A stretch of 64,000 nt of DNA from Arabidopsis thaliana (Eukaryota > Streptophyta > Magnoliopsida > Brassicales > Brassicaceae): contig NC_003075.7 of NCBI RefSeq assembly GCF_000001735.4, positions 16,989,001-17,053,000 of the forward strand, given 5' to 3'. A program made the translations under genes and the position numbers. Under the pieces are notes generated by a model. The model was given only the letters and a program-made list of their open reading frames with translations. It did not search any database and was not told where the DNA came from. How positions within the stretch are numbered: position 1 is the first letter of the stretch; each line of letters begins with the position of its first letter. Positions 4,339 to 37,518 of this stretch are shown here, piece by piece.

Positions 4339-6721
4339 ATGTCGTGCTGTTTCTTCAAGACTACTCTGTTCTTGATCCCGATTTTGATGTTACTGAGCTT
4401 CGGGAGCTGCAATGGTCGAATCTTCACCTTCGAGATGCACCATAGATTCTCCGACGAAGTCAAGCAATGGTCCGATTCCACCGGGAGATTTGCTAAGTTT
4501 CCCCCTAAAGGAAGCTTCGAATACTTCAACGCTCTCGTCCTCCGTGATTGGCTAATCCGTGGCCGTCGTCTCTCCGAGTCGGAATCGGAATCGGAGTCGT
4601 CGCTTACTTTCTCCGACGGCAATTCCACTTCTCGTATCAGCTCTCTCGGATTGTTAGTTTCCTTTTGCTCACAATTTTTGATAAAACTTCTCTGTTTTAG
4701 GATAAGTCTGATTTTATTTTATTTTCTGTTTCAATTTTTCTGATATCAGTTTGCATTACACGACGGTGAAATTGGGTACTCCGGGAATGAGATTCATGGT
4801 GGCGCTTGATACAGGAAGCGACCTCTTTTGGGTCCCTTGTGATTGCGGCAAATGCGCACCAACCGAAGGAGCCACTTATGCTTCTGTAAGTTTAACACTT
4901 TAAGCAACTACACAGTTGTTGAGTTTACTCATCTTACCAATTGAATTATATAAGTTTCCATCTTGATTTTGGGTTTCGATTTGCTGTGTTTAGGAGTTTG
5001 AACTCAGCATTTACAATCCTAAAGTTTCAACTACAAATAAGAAGGTCACCTGCAACAACAGTCTATGTGCACAGCGTAATCAGTGCCTTGGAACATTCAG
5101 CACTTGCCCTTATATGGTGTCTTATGTCTCTGCTCAGACTTCGACATCTGGTATTCTTATGGAAGATGTTATGCACTTAACAACAGAAGATAAGAATCCA
5201 GAGCGTGTTGAGGCATATGTCACATTTGGGTTAGTAGCTGTTAGCATCTTAGCAATGGCTTCTTGTGTTTCAGTTCAATGCAGCAAGTTCCTGAAAATGT
5301 GAATTATGTGCAGATGTGGACAGGTTCAAAGTGGTTCTTTTCTTGACATTGCAGCACCAAATGGTTTATTTGGTCTTGGCATGGAAAAGATATCGGTTCC
5401 AAGTGTTTTGGCGAGGGAAGGTCTGGTTGCTGATTCTTTCTCCATGTGTTTCGGTCATGATGGAGTTGGAAGGATCAGTTTTGGGGACAAGGGTAGTTCT
5501 GATCAGGAAGAGACACCGTTTAATCTCAATCCTTCACAGTAAGTGGTGATTCACTTATGCGCTAAATTGGAAATTCTGTTCCTTTGTGGATGGCACCTTT
5601 AAGCCGTGGTTAAATTCATTGTTGCAGTCCAAACTACAACATCACGGTGACTCGGGTACGTGTGGGGACTACTTTAATAGATGATGAGTTCACAGCTCTC
5701 TTTGACACCGGTACATCATTTACTTATTTGGTTGATCCAATGTATACGACAGTCTCTGAGAGTGTAAGCATCTAAACACCATCATATTCGTGTTTCTTCC
5801 GCATGATGCTGAGTTTTGATAACTCTATGATTCACATTATCTTCTTCAGTTCCATTCTCAGGCCCAAGATAAGCGCCATTCACCGGATTCAAGGATTCCA
5901 TTTGAGTATTGTTATGACATGAGGTATGAGTTTGTATCTATCCACGCTCAATGTCTATTTTTCATTGTCACTCAAATCTTAACATTTTTCTTGTAAACGG
6001 TGTGATTAGCAATGACGCGAATGCCAGTTTGATACCGAGTTTAAGCTTAACAATGAAAGGAAACAGTCACTTCACCATCAACGATCCTATAATCGTCATC
6101 TCTACTGAGGTTATACTCTCTGTCTACTTCTTTCTCTATTGCTCCGTCTCTTCTTCAACCAAATCTGTTATCTGTGTGCTGATACTATTAGAATCTCTGC
6201 ATTTCCTCAGGGCGAACTTGTATATTGCCTGGCCATTGTCAAAAGCTCTGAACTCAACATTATTGGGCGTAAGATCAGTTTTTCTTCCTATCAATCATGG
6301 AACATCCGCTAAATAATGACATTGTTTACTCTTAATGAAACAGAAAACTACATGACCGGGTATCGTGTAGTATTCGACAGGGAGAAACTCGTCTTAGCTT
6401 GGAAAAAGTTTGACTGTAAGTTTCCTCTTACGTGTGTTATATATCACTAAAACCCTCTGTTTCCTAACTTATGATCTGTGAATATCTCTTAACGCAGGTT
6501 ATGATATCGAAGAGACAAACACAACTGTTGCCGGAACAAACAAAACAGCAGCGGTAGCTCCAGCAATGGCAGCTGGAATAAAGACTCATAACAATTCCTC
6601 AGAGCTACACAAAACAAACCAAACCATCTCCAAAAGTAACTCCTCCCCAAACCAAATATCCAAAACAGTAGATGTATGGTCTTTTTTCAGATTTGTGTTC
6701 ATATTACTTCCACTTGTGTAG
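4339..6721 (+). CDS. A1-family aspartyl protease with signal peptide and GPI-like tail
   Basis: This is a pepsin-like (A1) aspartyl protease of 524 residues, recognised as At4g35880. Exons: 4339-4652, 4750-4885, 4994-5229, 5314-5538, 5628-5763, 5850-5923, 6010-6109, 6211-6268, 6344-6415 and 6498-6721. All introns are GT-AG and every junction keeps frame. A signal peptide (residues 1-26, hydrophobic LFLIPILMLLSF core) leads the chain. The two catalytic motifs are ALDTGSDLFWVPCDC (Asp about 125) and LFDTGTSF (Asp about 330). The C-terminus is Ser/Thr/Asn-rich and ends in a hydrophobic stretch (SFFRFVFILLPLV) with no basic tail, the pattern of a GPI-anchor signal. It is therefore probably secreted and anchored at the outer plasma-membrane face. 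Substrate unknown. Confidence 0.9.
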
Positions 6722-15745: not shown

Positions 15746-16952
15746 ATGTTGTCATCAGCTAAGCATCAGAGAAACCATAGACTCTCTGCTACAAACAAGA
15801 ACCAGACTCTCACCAAAGTTTCTTCCATTTCATCCTCATCACCATCGTCTTCTTCTTCATCATCATCAACCTCATCATCATCTCCTTTACCTTCTCAAGA
15901 CTCTCAAGCCCAGAAGAGATCTCTTGTCACCATGGAAGAAGTTTGGAATGACATCAACCTTGCTTCCATCCACCACCTAAACCGACACAGCCCTCATCCA
16001 CAACACAACCACGAGCCAAGGTTCAGGGGCCAAAACCACCACAACCAAAACCCTAACTCAATCTTCCAAGATTTTCTCAAAGGATCTTTGAACCAGGAAC
16101 CAGCACCCACAAGCCAGACCACGGGTTCTGCGCCTAATGGCGATTCCACCACGGTCACTGTTCTTTACAGCTCTCCTTTTCCACCTCCTGCAACTGTTCT
16201 GAGCTTGAATTCCGGCGCTGGCTTCGAGTTTCTCGATAACCAAGATCCTCTTGTTACCTCAAACTCTAATCTTCATACCCACCATCACCTCTCAAACGCT
16301 CATGCCTTCAACACCTCTTTCGAGGCTCTGGTTCCATCCAGTTCTTTTGGTAAGAAAAGAGGCCAAGATTCCAATGAAGGTTCAGGGAATAGAAGACATA
16401 AGCGTATGATCAAGAACAGAGAATCTGCAGCTCGTTCCCGCGCTAGGAAACAGGAATGTGCCTCTCCTCTTCCCTCCTAATCTTCTTCTACTCATGTGTA
16501 TCAAAAAGGGAAGAAAAGAAATGTGGTTTTGCCATCAAATTGCTTTTGATCTAAAAAAAGGTCTCTTGGTTTTGATTCTCATTTGCAGGCTTATACAAAC
16601 GAGTTAGAACTTGAAGTTGCTCACTTGCAGGCAGAAAATGCAAGACTCAAGAGACAACAAGATCAGGTAAACAAGCAGAGCCAAGTTCTTAATGTTTTAC
16701 CCTTTTGTAGCACTCATGTCATTAGATCAATTCCTTGTAGTTTAACCAACTTATAAAAAGAGACAGACAGACAGCCTCTGGAGTATATTTGTTTTACACA
16801 CTTTTTTGTCCAATGACATTTTGGGTGGTTAGATTCTGATACTTCAGTTGTGTGTTTATTATGTGTGTGTGTGTGTGCAGTTAAAAATGGCTGCAGCAAT
16901 TCAGCAACCCAAAAAGAACACACTTCAACGGTCTTCCACAGCTCCATTTTGA
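15746..16952 (+). CDS. FD: bZIP transcription factor FD (flowering, partner of FT)
   Basis: This is a group A bZIP factor of 285 residues, recognised as FD (At4g35900). FD acts at the shoot apex with the florigen FT and 14-3-3 proteins to activate floral identity genes. Exons: 15746-16453, 16589-16666 and 16881-16952. Visible parts are a Ser-rich N-terminus, a TMEEVWNDINLASI conserved box, and the basic region KRMIKNRESAARSRARKQ with the N-x7-R signature at residues 224-232. The leucine zipper AYTNELELEVAHLQAENARL follows, and the C-terminal SAP motif RSSTAPF carries the phospho-acceptor Thr282 used for 14-3-3 binding. The first intron begins GAATGT rather than GTATGT, so it is GA-AG. No GT donor nearby preserves the bZIP frame. 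Unspliced, the frame would stop after eight extra residues, truncating the zipper. The second intron is GT-AG and ends in a TG tract. Confidence 0.95.
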
Positions 16953-23105: not shown

Positions 23106-25192
23106 TCAATGTTCCATGAACTGCGACGAAGGCGGGCTTATTTTCGTCTTCTCCGTACCTGCAAAGATATGAGAGACAGATCTTTGTTAGTGCTTCAAGA
23201 TTGAAACAAATATTGATAATATGTTTGTATGTAAATCATACCATATGCCCCACGAATCTCAACTTCTCTCAGTTCTTGTACAAGGGCACAGCAACAACAC
23301 ATTACATGAGATAGAAAATCGTCAATGAATCCTCCCTGCGAAATCAGAAAACATTAAGCATTCATTCCGACTCTACATTGAGTGGCATAAACATAGCCAT
23401 TTCAATCTCAACCATGATAGTTACTACTGAATTTTTTTGCAGGTGTCTACTTAATCTTTAACCGAAATTTCATTTGTTGTTTATGGTATGCAAATGATAG
23501 AAATTTTCTCGGAAGCATATAGATTTTTGGGATCAAATGGGATTAATGGTAAGGATTCAAGCGAGTGGAAGAGAATGAGAATGTAATACCGTGATGTTCA
23601 GTGTCTTCCGGAGTTTCCTCCTCACGCAACAAGTATAGCAGCAACAAGAAAGTATCAAAGAATACGCCATTAGCTCATTACATGCTTCAGCTGAAGCTGG
23701 GAGAGCGAAAATTAAAAAAAATCCAGTTGACTTATTAGCTTTCACATGTATTACTAAAAGATTGAAAATTAATAAAGTCACGGTATTCAATAATATCCCT
23801 TACAGATGTGCCTGTTGGATGCTGCAGTGGCAATCTTTGCCAAAGTACCACACGGGAAAAAGAATGTCTTGAAGCCTGCGGTTCCATCATTGAATCTTTG
23901 AGAACTTTGCAGATAACAAGGAAGTATAGAATGTGAAACGCTAATCATCTATGTAACAGAGAAAACAAAGTGGAGCCACATTGTAAACAAATAGTGTGGT
24001 CTTACAAAGAGAAGGTTCCGAGCAACAAGCTAGTAAGTCGGTATGCCATTCTTCATGGTGTTGTGCCTGTGATGCTCTTCGTGAAAGCAGATCATGCCCA
24101 GATGAAACATTAGAAGTGGATCTGCATGGAACAATTGTGTAACCGATGTTATAGAACATTGTACCAAATCTTAGCCTTCAAACATGAAAACAGACCTAAA
24201 AGCATTACAGTCACAGCAAAGAATTGAAGATTATACTTTCTTAAACTTGTAAGGAAATTTGGATCTTTAGAACAAACATGAGATTCTAACCTCGAAGCTG
24301 CACGAGTACTGCTTTTCTTGGGAGAATCTTCGTCATACGAATATTCCGTCTTCATGCTTGAGCTACGTTCAGATTTTTTGGAAGCTTTCTTTGTCAGCTC
24401 CTTCTCAGAGTCAGGTTCAACAGCAGCAGCAGCTTGTGTAACACCAATTAAACGCTGAATGACTTCACACTGAGCCACATCATAATGCTCCTGCGACCGC
24501 TGAAGTTCGATCTGCAGTTTCTCGTTTTCTGTTTTGAGAGCTTCACAGAAACGCAAGTTAGGGTATGAGCAAGAGAGAGTCTTCTTCAGTACTGATGCTG
24601 CTTCTCTGGTGGATTCTTGTTTCAAAATAACATCTTGCACATGTCTATCCTCTTCATCCAGAGTGTACTCACGCTGATCACGGTCAATATACTCAAACCT
24701 CTCCTGTATAACAATCAAAATTTCAATATACCATAACATCAAGCAGAGAAACTTGTTAGACCAAAATGCAGGTAAAATTACCCGAATGCGAGCGTTATCG
24801 ACCAAAGTGATGAGAGGTATGATCTTAAGAAAACGATCAATCTCATCCTGATGTTTCCTGAACTGGTAAACAATGTTCCAACCCATAGCCAACAAGTAAA
24901 GATAGCTCCGGTCTCTACAGCTATTGACCAGAAGGTAAGACCTTCTCAAAGCATCCTCAAGCCCTTCGAGAGGCTCTCGAGTCTCAGGATACTTCTTCAT
25001 CTCAGAGATCTTCAGCTGTTCAAGCAAATTCCCAATGAGTTTGAGATGTTGAGCGAATTGACGACAATTCTTCTTATGCATCCAAGCAGTATTCGCAGCT
25101 TTGACTATGAGACCAATCAACTTGACCGCATCTAAACCAGTCAGCTGAGCCACTGACGCAATCTCCCCAAGACCATCCCATGAATGTGACAT
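23106..25192 (-). CDS. MCA1: MCA1 mechanosensitive Ca2+ channel (MID1-complementing)
   Basis: This encodes a plasma-membrane Ca2+-permeable, stretch-responsive protein, recognised as MCA1 (At4g35920). CDS exons (minus): 25192-24782, 24703-24291, 24121-24006, 23875-23804, 23696-23590, 23335-23242 and 23158-23106, giving 421 residues. The single N-terminal membrane segment contains Asp21 (QLTGLDAVKLIGLIV), reported as essential for activity. An EF-hand-like/ARPK region follows (to about 137). A coiled coil (ALKTENEKLQIELQRSQEHYD) and a Ser/Lys-rich linker come next. The Cys-rich PLAC8/DUF614 domain then has the hallmarks LLACCSEPSLC, FFFPCGTLAKIA, LSCCCYTCCVRRKLR and HVMCCCCALVQELREVE. Exon 5 has two possible acceptors six bases apart. 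The outer one gives 421 aa and the inner one 419 aa, lacking two residues. Confidence 0.94.
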
Positions 25193-26976
25193 TATCTTCT
25201 TCTACTCAAAGTTCCTGGTCGATAGAAACCGAATCATCATTATGCACAGGAAACATAACTTGAAGATCCAAAAACATGGAATTATCGAGATTGTTGGAAA
25301 TTTTACCTTCGCTGAGCTGATATTAATGGAAATTGACGGAATCAGAGAGTTGGATCCAAAGTTCTACAAGGACGGCATTGTTGATAGAGATCGAGTAGGA
25401 GTTCAGTTCCTGGCGATATATCAGAGGTAACCACCGAGAGATTCAGATATTCCGGTTGAGAAATCGCATTATATTGAGGGAGTGAAGCGAGAATTGACTA
25501 AAAGAGGGAGCAGTTTCTTCGACTGCGACAACAAAAGCAACAAAGAGAAAAAGAGAGTCCATAAGATACCAATCAAAGAGATTCTCCAGGTCTATAGGCT
25601 TTCTACGTCAAAGATCTTCAACACCAATAAAGCAAACAAATTTTTTTTAAGAAAATCCCTAAAGATGATTTGTCTTTGAAAGACTTGAAGCTGACGAAAG
25701 CGAAAGAGTAAAATTCAAAGACCAGAAAGTAAAAGTAGCACAAATATGAACAGTTTCAACCTCCGACGATTTGAACAATTCGCCGGCGACAAACTCCTCC
25801 GCCGAGAGTCAAGTCAAGTGGAAGAAAAAAGACATTGAAAATCACAGAAAACTTTTAAGTAAATTAAAAAAATGGAGAGAGAGAGAGGAAACAATATTGG
25901 AATGCTCACATGATGGCAATGAAGAAGACAACCGATATACTTTTTCTCTTCACGGATTTCTATATACTATAACAAAATTACCCAAAAAAAAAATGGAAAA
26001 TGCTTGAAGAAGAAGAAGAACACTACTCAAGTCTAGGAATTACAGAGATACGTTTCCAGGAAAATGCAAAACCACCTGGAGATTTCTTCAAAATATGAGC
26101 AGAGAAGAAGATTCTATGCAACTGTGAAGGGAGAGTTAAATCCAGAGGCAGAGATGAGAAGACGGTTTGTTTTTGTCGATTTATGTATTTCTCTCATTAG
26201 CTTTCTTTCTCCCACACCTTCTTCACTTGCCACTCGTCGGAGCTCAAGAGCCCCCCCATCCTGCTTTTTTCTCCATGTATTTTTACCCATAGGCCCAGCA
26301 AAACTCTCTCTAATTACCAATGTGCCCCTGGTGACTTTTCTGTTTTTATTTATTAACCATAAAGTTTCATAAATTCTAGCTACAAGTAGTTAATGTAGTT
26401 TGTTACACGTTGATGGGTATACGTGACATTGCTAAATAAATAACCTTTGTGTAGGACTAATGATACCTTAATAATATATTGGAGTTTGAGATTATAAAAA
26501 GCCGTTGAGATTATCACTTTCCTGTTAAGTATTGTCTTACAAAAATTTTAAAAATGTGACTTTGTTGTCTTTTTATTGGTTGTCGGCATAAAATGACTTC
26601 GTTTGAAACGAATAATGTAATTTTTTCGTCGTAATATAAGGCGCAACGACGTCAAATATTGATATTTGTTTTAAGTTGTATATGTATATATGAACAATTC
26701 CAATGGCTAAAATCTAAAGTTTATGTATATCCGTGTGACCACTGAGAATTTTGAAACTCCTGATCGGGAAAACTTGCAGGTGGCGTATTGGCGTTCGTAA
26801 TGTTGAGAGTAAAGCTAACTTAGCTTGATAGGTCATATACTTGTTATTAGACTATAATTGTGATTCCATGTTAATGTAAGACGGATTATGAAGAAAGCAT
26901 AGTATGGAAATGTTGCATGTTTAAAATAATTAAACAGAGAAACATAATGGGATAAAAAAAAATGAGATGTGATCGC

Positions 26977-31744: not shown

Positions 31745-32671
31745 TTACACTTAGCTGCAGTCATATCGGTTTCCTCTCTCTGTTGATAGTAGGTTTTGTC
31801 TTCATTGCATAATTGATCATTGCTCTTGATGATCATCATTACCTATAGTAAGAAGCATGCAAGTTTTGTAGCAGTGCTAGTTCAGGGTTTTAGGTTTACA
31901 TGGGAATCTCCTAGTATCATTTAAGGGGTTTTCAAGTTTTTACTCTCTTGAGTTTGTCATAATAAGCGTCTTTGATTTGGTCAGTTGAGTCTTGTGTATA
32001 TTTTCTGCATATCTTATCTGGATCAGTTGCTTTTTTTTTTTTAATATAATTTGATTGCTTATCCTTGCTTTCATCTTATTGGTTATTGAGTTCTCCAATT
32101 TATCGTACCGCGATTCAAACCGTACTTAAATGTTAAACCGGATATTATTAAATCGATTGAACTGAATAAGATTCGGTTCAAGTTTGGTTATATTTTTCTT
32201 AAGGCCTCTGATTTAGTTGGGCCTATTTACGATCTTACAAGCCCAAACTTATTGCCGAAGATCCATTATTGAAAAGTCTCGACGCGTGTAAGCTTACTAT
32301 ATCCCTGTTGCCAAACAAGGCTTTTGTCCCTTGTAGGGCCAATCCTTTATTTGGCTATAAATAAAGGATGTATGTCTTCTAAACAAACACTTTTTCTAAT
32401 CGGAGAGCTTCGAAGGGTTCTGAGATCTCGCGGCTCCTTCGATCTTCTCCGCTCAACTATTACCTCCGATCGTTGGCTTATGTCTACTGTAACCTCTTAG
32501 ATTTGATTTTGGCGCGTTATTAGAAACCCCTAACATCTTTAAACTCACTCGAGGTCTCTCGTGATCGATCTAGGGTTTCGCGAGATCTGAGATTTCATAT
32601 TTTCCGATTCACCTTCGCAATCCAATTTTTTTTGTTGCTTGGATTTTGTTTGTGTGTAATCGTGTGGTAAG
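31745..32671. other. Intergenic: FBS4 3' UTR and promoter of the Lys-rich gene
   Basis: A T-rich 3' UTR runs to about 32100. A GGGCC motif (32336-32340) and a TATA box inside a hairpin (32342-32369) lie upstream of the next start codon at 32672. A CT/GA-rich leader follows. Confidence 0.55.
32342..32369 (+). promoter_or_regulatory. TATA box embedded in an 11-bp perfect inverted repeat
   Basis: ATCCTTTATTT (32342-32352) and its exact complement AAATAAAGGAT (32359-32369) flank six bases (GGCTAT). The core promoter TATAAATAAAG lies across the loop and right arm. It sits about 300 bp upstream of the start codon at 32672, a plausible TATA position for this gene. Confidence 0.5.
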
Positions 32672-34593
32672 ATGTCTCGGTGTTTTCCGTTCCCGCCACC
32701 TGGTTATGTACTAAACGGAATCCGCGATGAGGCTGTGATCGTATCATCGATCAAGGTTTGTTTGAGCATTTAAATCTCGGTTTTGGGTTTCGGGTTCATG
32801 AGATTTCGAATGCTCAGCTTCCTTGTGTTTCCAGTTTCTGGTATCATCTGTGTTCTAAGGTTTACTAAAAATTGTTGGCTTGAAAGATGGGGGATAGAGA
32901 ATGTTGCGAGATTTTAATTGAAAAAGATGATCTTAAGTTGTACTTAAGTAAACAAAAAGCACGCATTCGAATCAATGTCTCAATATTAATCGTTCGCTTA
33001 AGGTGGCAATTTTAATCAAAAAGATGCGAGTCAAGCACATTCATTGTCTACTCTAATCAAAATGTGTAATTTGACTAAATGTGCGAACACCACTTGTTTG
33101 GAGTTTAAGGGCTGGTCTATCTGAGGGCTTGTTTCTGTTTTTTTGTATTGAATTTGGCAAGTTCTGTGAACTAATTGATGTTGATTGCTTGTGTAAATTC
33201 AGGGGGTGGAGGAGAAAGCTAAGAAAGAACAAAGGAGGAAGGATAGAAGAAGTGATAAGAAGGATAAAAAAGATAAGAAGGAGAGGAAGGAGAAGAAGGA
33301 GAAGAAGGAGAAAAAGAGGAAGGAGAGGGAAGGAAAGGAAGTTGGAAGCGAAAAGCGCAGTCATAAGAGACGGCGTAAAGAAGACGGTGCTAAAGTTGAT
33401 CTTTTTCACAAACTAAAAGAAAGTGAAGTCAATTGTTTGGAGAAGAGCAGCCTTACTGTAGAACGTGAGCTGCTTCAGTCGACGTCCCAAAACTCTTGTG
33501 ATAGCACTCTTAACAGCAATGAGATGTTACCGAAGCAGAAGGAGGTCCAGCAGCCTCTCGATGGTAGACATAACAACAACAACAACGAGAAGCGTGTGGA
33601 GAAGCAGCAGCCTCTCGATGGTAGACATAACAACAACAACGAGAAGCGTGTGGAGAAGCAGCAGCCTCTCGATGGTAGACATAACAACAACAACGAGAAG
33701 CGGATTGAGAAGCAGCAGCCTCTCAATGGTAGACATAACAACAACAACGAAAAGCTGATGGAGAAGCAGCAGCCTCTCAATGGTAGACATAACAACAACA
33801 ACGAGAAGCGGATTGAGAAGCAGCAGCCTCTCAATGGTAGACATAACAACAAGGAGAAGCAGAAAGAGAAACAGCAGCCTCTCGATGTTAGACATAACAA
33901 CAACGACTCTGGTGAGTTTGTTTGTGTTTCTTCCTTCCCCGGGGAAGGATCTTGTATTCTTGTTGGGTCTAATTACCTTATCAGGACATTGATGACATTC
34001 TTTCTTCAAATTGTTGATATGAATTTGAAGAAAGCATCATTCGGATTCGATTGCCTATTCGAAGGCAGAAAGATCCCGAGGTGATGATGACCAATAAGGA
34101 TCAAGAAAAACCAGGTCCTTCTCGGGGAATAAAGTTAGACTCGTCCCAACTTCCTACTAGAGAGCCGGTTAATCAACATCCTTGTTCCACTTCTGCAGCA
34201 GAACATGCTTCGAAGCCACGAGAAGAGAAAAGGAAAGATCCCATTTTTAGAGGGAAACACGGTAAAGAGAAGATATCCTCATCCTCTACTCGAGAAACTT
34301 ATCAACCTCCTAAAAGCCTATGCAATTGCCCTCCATCCATGGTGTTGCAATTCTTGGACGTAGTTGAGAATTGGGTCCCTAACACGATCGAGAGAAGAGT
34401 AGACCTCATTAACTCTGAAGATGAAGAATGTTGGTGGTCCATGAAGAAGCCGCCAAGTAGCACCACAGAAATATGCAAACAACTTAATAGAGAGAATGAG
34501 ATCAAGCAAGTAGGCAATACAATGGGGTGGCCATGTGCTCGCCTTTTACCAGAAGCTGATGTCTACGCCTTACCTTACACAGTCCCGTTCTGA
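32672..34593 (+). CDS. Lys-rich unknown protein with 18-residue tandem repeats
   Basis: I recall this as the uncharacterised locus At4g35940 and know no function for it. Exons: 32672-32755, 33203-33911 and 34031-34593, giving 451 residues. The first two junctions are GT-AG with good context. The last acceptor (TTTGAAG at 34030) is weaker but is the one that keeps frame. The N-terminus (MSRCFPFPPPGY) is conserved-looking. A very Lys/Glu-rich block (about 30-80) resembles nuclear, charged disordered proteins. Seven tandem copies of QQPLDGRHNNNNEKRVEK-like units follow. The C-terminal third has a compact motif set (CNCPPSMVLQFLDVVENWVP, DEECWWSMKK) likely to be the folded part. Possibly nuclear. 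Confidence 0.75.
33548..33907 (+). repeat. 54-bp coding minisatellite (7 units)
   Basis: Units begin at 33548 (57 bp), 33605, 33659, 33713 and 33767 (54 bp each), 33821 (51 bp) and 33872 (partial). Every length difference is a multiple of three, so frame is kept. Units encode QQPL(D/N)GRHNNNNEK with variation mainly at D/N, Asn number and the last three residues. The repeats also make long spurious antisense frames. Confidence 0.9.
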
Positions 34594-35050
34594 TAACATC
34601 AAAGAGCAGGAAGTTTTTAACAAGGAATCTGGTCGAGACATCCATGTTCTGGACCAGACAGTTTTTTGGTTTAGCCTTAAAATTCCAAGGTTGTATAAGA
34701 AGAACACACTGTTTGTTATTCTTTGCGGTTGGTAACCAATATAGTAATATCAGTATTTCGTCTCAATCTCTCTTGTTCTTATAATAATAGAATGAGAAAT
34801 CGAAATGGAATTTTCATGTGAAGTGGATTAGTAACATTATCACAATTGATAAAACATTTGTAAATAACTAGACAAGCTTTCTCGGCTATCAGTTAAAATA
34901 GAAGTTGAATTAACCTCACAATTCGTTTTGTACGGAACTAAGAGATCACAAATGAAAACGGAAAACAACAACAAAAATGAAAAAGCGATACTTTTTTAAA
35001 CCACCCTGTCATCCTCATCTCAAAGAGCTTCTTGACTTCCATGAGTGCTA
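34594..35050. other. Intergenic between convergent Lys-rich gene and ROP gene
   Basis: The stretch is the 3' UTRs of both genes. I see no further gene. Confidence 0.6.
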
Positions 35051-36514
35051 TTACAAGATGGAGCAGGCCTTTTGTGCTTTGTTCTTCTTTTTCTTCTGCT
35101 TTGGAGGTTGAAGGACCACTCTGATCGCTGCATCAAACACGCCCTTCACGTTCTGCAGTTATAGTCACATTGTTTTCATCAAAAGATGAAGAATCCAACA
35201 CCGAAAAGATGATTCATGAGATGTCTTTTATTCGTTTACCTCTTGTGATTTTGAACTGCACTCGATGTAAGCTGGCGCTCCAATTAGCTTCTTCAGCTCC
35301 TCTCCCTTCCATGCAGAGAGGGAAAATGCTTAACGGTGGTAAAGCTGATAAAATTGCACTGAGGAAATAACTGTATTCTTACCTGAACAGTGGTAATAGG
35401 GACAGCACCAGGATGGTCGATGAAAAACTGTTTGTCATCTCGAAGATCTGACAACAACCAAGGTTAGACAATCAAAAAGGCCAGGATCATGAGTTGACTG
35501 AAGATCTTGCAAGTGTCTTTTATAAAGGTATACACTTGCTATACAGTAGCTATTTCATTGGAGGATGCTTAAAGGCGTGTGTTATAGGATATGGTTGCTT
35601 TATCACAAGAAGTGCAAGATACAAGAAGAAGCCTGTTGACCAATGATATTCTCTGAAAACTACCCTCAGTTTCACCTAACGAATACATCTTGAACATGTA
35701 CAAGTTTTAACCACAATCAAGAGAAGGTGAAGTTTTATGTCCACTAATGTCATGATATATTATACCAGAGCAGCTTAATAAAGTGAAAAGGAAAATGGCA
35801 GTGTAAGCATGGGAATCAGACATATATATAAATAAATGCATAAACAAGGACAAATGTGAGAGGAGGAAGTAACCTAGTTTGGTTCCAACAAGGACAATTG
35901 GGACACCAGGAGCATAGTGCTTCAACTCAGGAATCCACTGTAAAAGAAAAGAAGCATCAAAATTTGGAACTCTCAATTGTTAAATAGTCGACCAGTTCGG
36001 ACGAAACTGACCTTCTTGGAAACATTCTCATAACTAGCCTTACTAATGAGAGAGAAGGCAAGAATGAAAACATCAGCACCACGGTAACTCAAAGGTCTTA
36101 ATCTGTTATAGTCCTCTTGCCCTGCATAAACCAAAAACATAATTTCGACCGATTCATCAAGGAAAGCTCTCTCACCAAGGATTATGAATTGGATCATCAT
36201 TCATTACCTGCAGTATCCCACAATCCAAGATTCACCGTGGCTCCATTAACAACCACATTTGCACTAAAGTTATCGAAAACAGTCGGAACATAATCCTGTT
36301 CCAATGGAAATGTATACAACATTTTTAGTATGTATGGATCCCAATTCATATATGGCACAATCAGAATCAAATGAATCAGATATCAAAAAAAGGAGGGAGA
36401 ATGATTGATGAATACCGTGGGAAAGGTGTTGCTGGTATAAGAAATCAGCAAACAGGTTTTACCAACAGCTCCATCACCAACGGTGACGCACTTTATGAAC
36501 CTTGATGCGCTCAT
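35051..36514 (-). CDS. ROP5: ROP/RAC small GTPase
   Basis: This is a plant Rho GTPase of 197 residues, recognised as ROP5/ARAC6 (At4g35950), a plasma-membrane switch for polar growth and the cytoskeleton. CDS exons (minus): 36514-36416, 36295-36208, 36121-36012, 35937-35874, 35447-35383, 35305-35240 and 35152-35051, all GT-AG. Nucleotide-binding motifs are intact: GDGAVGKT (13-20), the switch I region with [17 protein letters not shown] (59-65) and TKLD (118-121). The polybasic KQKKKKNK stretch precedes the C-terminal CSIL prenylation box (geranylgeranyl type), so this is a type I ROP. The family name is certain. The exact paralogue (ROP5 versus ROP1/3) is from recognition and genomic neighbours. 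Confidence 0.92.
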
Positions 36515-37518
36515 TGCCTCTTCTTCTTCTTCTTCGAGCCAAAATATGTCACAATTTACCAAAAAACAAAAGAGATCAACCTCAGATTTAAACCTGAGGA
36601 AGCCAGAAACACCCACAATGTGAAGCCAATTCCTCCGAAACTTCGACCATTATCTTTCAATTAACCATCTCAAAACCCTAGATATGTATAATGTGGAAAC
36701 AAACCCCCCAAATAGAGAAAATCAGAAATGTGAAGAAGGAAGGAAGATGAATAAACAAAAGGGAACGTGAGGACGATGAATTGGAGGATGCGAGAGAGAG
36801 AGAGAACAACAACTAGAGAGAGAAAGAAAGAAGTAGAGAAGAAAGTGATGGCCGGAAATAATTGCCATTGAAGCGTTCGATTAATCTCAGCCATTCAACC
36901 TTCCGACTGTTTTGCAATCTTTTTACTTTTTTTACTTCTTCTGTTGTCTTTTAAATAATTACTATTTTACTTCTTCTTCTTTTTTCTGTTTGATTTTTTA
37001 GTGTATATTCAAATTAATTTATTTATCTTGTATACAAAAAAGTAAAATAAAGGAGTTGCACATAATGTATTTTGTCTTTGTTGTTTAAAATGCAAATAAG
37101 AAAAATTAACACTGGCTAAAATTATACGTGTTTTTAACTGTCTGTAAAATTTCTAGTACGATTTGTTTTACTATTCTAATTCATTTTTTTACTAGTTTTT
37201 CCGGATGCTCACCAAATGTGAAAAAATCTCTAAGTTATGATTCAATATTTATGAAACCAATCAGCCAATTGCGGTACAATAAAGTTGTAATGCACTAGTT
37301 CTTCCGCATACTCGCCAAATTTATGTTAAAATTTCAAGGATGTTTGATGATATTGAATGTGGTTAGTTGAATTTGCATGTTGGCTAGTGAGAATGTGGTG
37401 TATGGACCAAACCTGAACTTATTTGTATGTCAACAAAGTGTGGTAATATTTTCTGCCAAAAATTGCAATAATCTCAACTAACAAATATTTTACCGAGTAT
37501 GTAAAATGTCAACATTGG
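36515..37518. other. Intergenic: ROP promoter and AT-rich spacer
   Basis: A purine-rich leader with GA repeats (36789-36803) is read as CT-rich on the gene strand. The leader and promoter are followed by AT-rich spacer. No gene is supported. Confidence 0.55.

Follow-up and report, generated by a model that had tools for sequence, protein, structure and literature searches.

A GA-AG first intron in the bZIP domain of Arabidopsis FD, shared with its duplicate FDP

We conclude with high confidence that FD intron 1 is genuine, of U2 type, bounded by GA and AG, and routinely removed to yield the 285-aa FD protein, that an A occupies position +2 of its otherwise ordinary CAG/GNAUGU donor, and that this GA was already present in the FD/FDP ancestor before the segmental duplication and was kept by both copies. 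The analysis shows the sequence, the frame, the paralogue, the collinearity, and the agreement with published residue numbers and with working genomic constructs; routine splicing, the snRNA steps, and the age of the site are our inference. GA-AG introns are already known as a class; the GA donor shared by both duplicates is the new addition. Such introns are easily mistaken for sporadic events or annotation noise, and finding GA at one and the same codon in a duplicated pair of genes important for development indicates that such a site can last for as long as the duplication has existed. Coordinates of the FD features are collected in Table 1 and refer to the window, by which we mean the whole stretch of 64,000 nucleotides analyzed.

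Table 1. Features of the FD gene, in positions of the window (a slash marks the exon–intron boundary).
Feature	Position	Strand	Remarks
FD exon 1, coding part	15746..16453	+	236 codons, the last being Gln236 (RKQ) of the bZIP basic region
FD intron 1	16454..16588	+	135 nt, GA-AG
FD donor region, CAG/GAATGTGCCTCTCCTC	16451..16469	+	15/16 first intron bases as in FDP
Rival dinucleotides GT 16458 (+5) and GC 16460 (+7; GT in FDP)	16458..16461	+	neither gives normal bZIP spacing
TAA met on retention of intron 1	16478..16480	+	product 244 aa, without zipper
Candidate branch point CTAAAA, A at 16554	16551..16556	+	34 nt from intron end; consensus match only
Acceptor TTTGCAG of FD intron 1	16582..16588	+	
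FD exon 2, leucine zipper	16589..16666	+	first residues Ala237, Tyr238
FD intron 2	16667..16880	+	214 nt, GT-AG
FD exon 3, coding part	16881..16952	+	C-terminal RSSTAPF (Thr282), stop

The reading frame of FD exon 1 ends in AGG AAA CAG at 16453 and resumes with GCT TAT ACA from 16589; the intervening intron opens with GAATGTGCC at 16454, with A at 16455, and closes with TTTGCAG at 16588, so that both the boundaries and the CAG/GAATGT donor (A at +2) are as the original prediction described them. Removal of 16454–16588 and 16667–16880 leaves a coding sequence of 858 nt that translates into 285 residues and a stop, a length which had been matched to FD from the outset and at which the published FD numbering indeed ends (in the text of PMC12711580). 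On this joined protein, the Pfam bZIP_1 profile aligns without a gap (residues 216–265 with profile positions 5–54, 51.5 bits), and on the unspliced read-through it scores 28.6 bits with the match ending at profile position 28. Frame, gap-free domain, and the identical donor of FDP (see below) thus lend strong support to a GA-AG intron within the FD bZIP domain. The boundary is formally ambiguous, as had been pointed out, because CAGG stands at both intron ends; the five equivalent placements nevertheless yield one mRNA and the same product, and only the GA-AG placement keeps an AG acceptor.

The context of the FD donor is U2-like (AG upstream and A after the GA in CAG/GAATGT). U12-type introns have the donor consensus RTATCCTT, which the FD donor GAATGTGC does not match when the two are compared by eye. 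The candidate branch-point motif CTAAAA of Table 1 is one of four loose branch-point matches within FD intron 1, and the FDP intron carries CTAAAA 22 nt from its end, likewise one of four loose matches and a consensus match only. No solved structure matched FD at E 0.001.

The joined protein also fits exactly the residue numbering in the texts of two published studies, one a 2025 Nature paper dealing with FD amino acids 215–285, T282, and the mutations Y238A, E243A, L242A, and L263A (PMC12711580), the other with T276, L277, T282, and the region 265–285 (PMC4321167): its residues 238, 242, 243, 263, 276, 277, 282, and 285 are Y, L, E, L, T, L, T, and F, respectively. Tyr238 is the second residue past the junction, so an extra codon at this point would not fit the published Y238. 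We infer the join from frame, paralogue, and this protein numbering, which the authors may have taken from annotation. The text of PMC12711580 further describes FD fusions in fd-3 that were made from Col-0 genomic DNA and comprise the promoter, the entire coding region, and the 3′ UTR. One gFD line is termed functional there, and mass spectrometry of a gFD fusion is reported to have detected phospho-T282; the introns are not named, and we take the gFD fusions to be intron-bearing genomic sequence.

A search of the whole genome (119.66 Mb) gave a single long second match to FD, on contig 2 (C2:7723041-7723730 and, beyond it, 7723877-7723952), which we take to be FDP. Intron 1 of this gene (C2:7723541-7723647, equivalent to L039:742-848; 107 nt) is likewise GA-AG and falls at the same codon as in FD, with the donor CAG/GAATGTGTCTCTCCTC common to both genes and the acceptor TTTCAG/GCA; the joined FDP frame encodes 234 aa and ends in SSTAPF. 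At +7, FDP has a canonical GT where FD has GC. The first 16 intron bases of FD and FDP are identical at 15 positions (the next best among 55 pairs of 11 donors agreeing at 10/16), and the two genes agree at 47 of 76 4-fold sites. At this 4-fold rate, P is about 0.005 for at least 15/16 matches and 0.059 for positions 7–16 alone (9/10), so that the evidence for any functional element extending beyond the donor hexamer is weak. The exact pattern AGGAATGTGNCTCTCCTC occurs genome-wide in FD and FDP only, and the donor region with any base permitted at +2 had no match in the genome-contig collection and none in the viral-contig collection.

The collinear flanks of FD and FDP suggest that the two genes arose by segmental duplication. 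Between the window and C2 around FDP, on the + strand, position 5310 corresponds to 7714858, 12958 to 7718949, 23254–25193 to 7725292–7726953, and 32646–34446 to 7731350–7732724, followed by an inverted part that pairs window 35050–36952 with C2:7741943-7739824. Collinear matches made up 2/3, 2/2, and 8/37 of the matches listed in the three comparisons, the rest of the 37 being mostly copies elsewhere of the family behind the inverted part. Given that FD and FDP lie in collinear segments, the GA is most simply older than the duplication, which is presumably the Brassicaceae alpha genome duplication. One T-to-A change before the duplication is the simplest history; two independent changes, or gene conversion, would be less simple. 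The duplicated chromosome block around FD spans window 5310–36952 and C2:7714858-7741943, with its last part inverted. Contig 2 has 19,696,942 bases, 1,347 fewer than TAIR10 chromosome 2.

In plants, GA-AG introns form an established class that is, as originally claimed, very rare: among the 161,774 introns of the A. thaliana gene models, 14 belong to it (PMC10668435 Table 2). This rarity gives a GA donor in FD a low prior. FD intron 1 may be among those 14, and may well be annotated already in the TAIR/Araport models. Neither FD nor FDP is named as a GA-AG example in the text searched of PMC5716242, PMC10668435, PMC7072748, PMC6310983, PMC2492810, PMC12711580, PMC4321167, PMC4176328, PMC11641677, and PMC9878124, and the term “GA-AG” is absent from the main text of PMC6310983. 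The context of AG upstream and A after the GA is described in the text of PMC7072748 for GA-AG introns of two animals. Two A. thaliana introns share the GA-AG ends with FD, AGY1 (At4g01800) intron 4 and PPI1 (At4g27500) intron 6, both known from Sanger-sequenced cDNA amplicons of accession Nd-1; these lie in other genes, however, and the text of PMC5716242, which reports them, describes no duplicate sharing the GA. In the AGY1 region, we find ACG/GAAAGT...ACAG/AGT in the SecA frame, likewise an otherwise normal donor with A in place of T at +2, and presumably the published intron. Comparison of PPI1 with a paralogue (L052, L079), at provisional and possibly wrong coordinates, gave no match to the published PPI1 intron.

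Further afield, intron 12 of Trema orientalis SYMRK resembles FD in placing a plant GA donor inside a functional gene, and its splicing (about 95%; PMC10668435) is the only efficiency figure we found for a plant GA-AG intron in the texts searched; the Trema GA, however, arose from a GC donor and is present in some accessions only, whereas that of FD/FDP is common to two duplicates. The GA-AG introns of vertebrate FGFR genes are conserved and U2-like, as is that of FD, but according to the texts of PMC4176328 and PMC7072748 their GA site depends on a GT lying 6 nt before it. The 12 nt that precede the GA contain no GT in either FD or FDP, so a dependence of this type does not apply to them. FD and FDP form a natural pair for asking what makes up for the U that both lack at +2. 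Where FD orthologues share the GA donor, misannotation is likely by gene finders that accept only GT or GC.

Recognition of the FD donor would most likely involve pairing of U1 with CAGG and then, over a small internal loop, with positions +5 to +7, after which U6, which also pairs at the donor, would engage about +4 to +6. The computed FD donor/U1 duplex comprises CAGG and positions +5 to +7 around a 3-nt internal loop at −5.5 kcal/mol (−5.2 kcal/mol for the FDP GA donor), and the FD value lies inside the range of nine paralogous GT donors (−3.0 to −11.6 kcal/mol), all of these energies leaving out pseudouridine and proteins. The GT at +5 of FD is part of the donor itself.

Retention of FD intron 1 adds eight residues (ECASPLPS) before TAA at 16478–16480, as predicted, and the 244-aa product lacks not only the zipper, also foreseen, but the 14-3-3 motif as well. 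In FDP, the retained frame runs through ECVSPHSSTF to a stop. The FD stop precedes the last exon junction by 186 nt, so a retained RNA would more probably be degraded or nuclear than act as a regulator. A conserved retained peptide was considered and rejected: FD and FDP differ once within the conserved stretch, by a base that is non-synonymous in the retained frame (Ala/Val), and the tails are unlike, leaving no sign of selection on such a peptide.

One might suppose, nonetheless, that the GA donor was kept for its effect on splicing, which it would render weak or regulated; a zipper-less transcript arising by retention would then throttle both FD and FDP. This agrees with the retention of GA in both duplicates, with the stop that retention meets in each, and with the similarity of the first intron bases (15/16 against 47/76 at 4-fold sites, P about 0.005, falling to 0.059 for positions 7–16 alone); we judge it unlikely all the same, as the sole difference in the conserved stretch is the non-synonymous Ala/Val one, the tails diverge thereafter, and the absence of a back mutation also explains the persistence of GA. 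For the inefficient or regulated splicing suggested in the original prediction the analysis gave no support: U1 pairing falls among the values of the paralogous GT donors, the GA-AG intron of the functional Trema SYMRK gene is spliced at about 95% (PMC10668435), and the gFD fusions are called functional, one of them having given the phospho-Thr282 peptide (text of PMC12711580). A fuller proposal, in which selection has kept the GA donor and its conserved 16-nt start since the duplication in order to throttle splicing of FD and FDP, the partners of florigen, with a trans factor on the CTCTCCTC tract setting splicing, seems to us distinctly improbable; if true, full-length FD output would depend on the splicing state of the shoot apex.

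Routine use of the GA donor was also weighed against other splice sites. Rival joins were enumerated from GT/GC donors between 60 nt before and 69 nt after the boundary and AG acceptors up to 60 nt from the acceptor, counting those in frame and free of stops and assessing bZIP spacing as N-x7-R-x9-L. When joined at GA-AG, both FD and FDP keep this spacing, as do two intronless paralogues; none of the in-frame GT/GC-AG rivals does (0/16 in FD, 0/11 in FDP). The original prediction held that no nearby GT restores the frame, citing one at 16457; that GT is in fact at 16458 (+5), and the claim is not quite correct, since this GT is in frame when paired with an acceptor located 28 nt inside exon 2; the resulting join breaks the bZIP spacing. 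An option absent from the prediction is the GC at +7 (16460), also in frame, which adds Glu-Cys and breaks the spacing. Were the true donor to lie these 6 nt further on, it would be GC-AG in FD (GAATGT/GCCTCT) and GT-AG in FDP (GAATGT/GTCTCT), with Glu-Cys inserted between basic region and zipper in a frame kept by both genes and from a canonical GT in FDP; the broken spacing, the very weak pairing with U1 (−0.4 and −1.3 kcal/mol vs −5.5 and −5.2 at the GA donors), and an FD of 287 aa with Tyr240 and Thr284 instead of the published Y238 and T282 (text of PMC12711580) make this highly unlikely, though the +7 join could occur as a minor isoform.

We likewise give very little credence to recognition of the GA donors by a variant U1 snRNA changed opposite +2, a solution proposed for animals rich in GA-AG introns (text of PMC7072748): the canonical ACTTACCTG is found in 14 of the 15 U1 matches listed, the fifteenth being a weak match without the U1 start, and no variant matching A at +2 is among them, although a diverged copy could be missed since 41 of 1,492 first-look candidates were scored.

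Comparison with other group A bZIP genes places the intron in its family setting. Eleven of the 13 genes examined (their names and some coordinates being our assumption) have an intron at RKQ/AYT, the same codon position as in FD and FDP, while two lack it; the donor is GT in nine, for two of which (L045, L047) the donor alone was seen and the acceptor was not found by the script, and GA in FD and FDP only. The prediction of a usually GT intron at this position in group A is thus borne out, and the text of PMC2492810 reports intron positions common to all group A genes except two. A sequencing or assembly error at 16455, with T as the true base, can be set aside almost entirely: GT is the expected donor (9/11 intron-bearing paralogues examined), but the same base recurs in FDP, on another chromosome and within conserved flanks, which suggests a rare splice site that is both old and in working order. 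At the other intron of FD, a TG microsatellite (TATGTGTGTGTGTGTGTGCAG, 16860–16880) abuts the intron 2 acceptor and replaces the usual pyrimidine tract.
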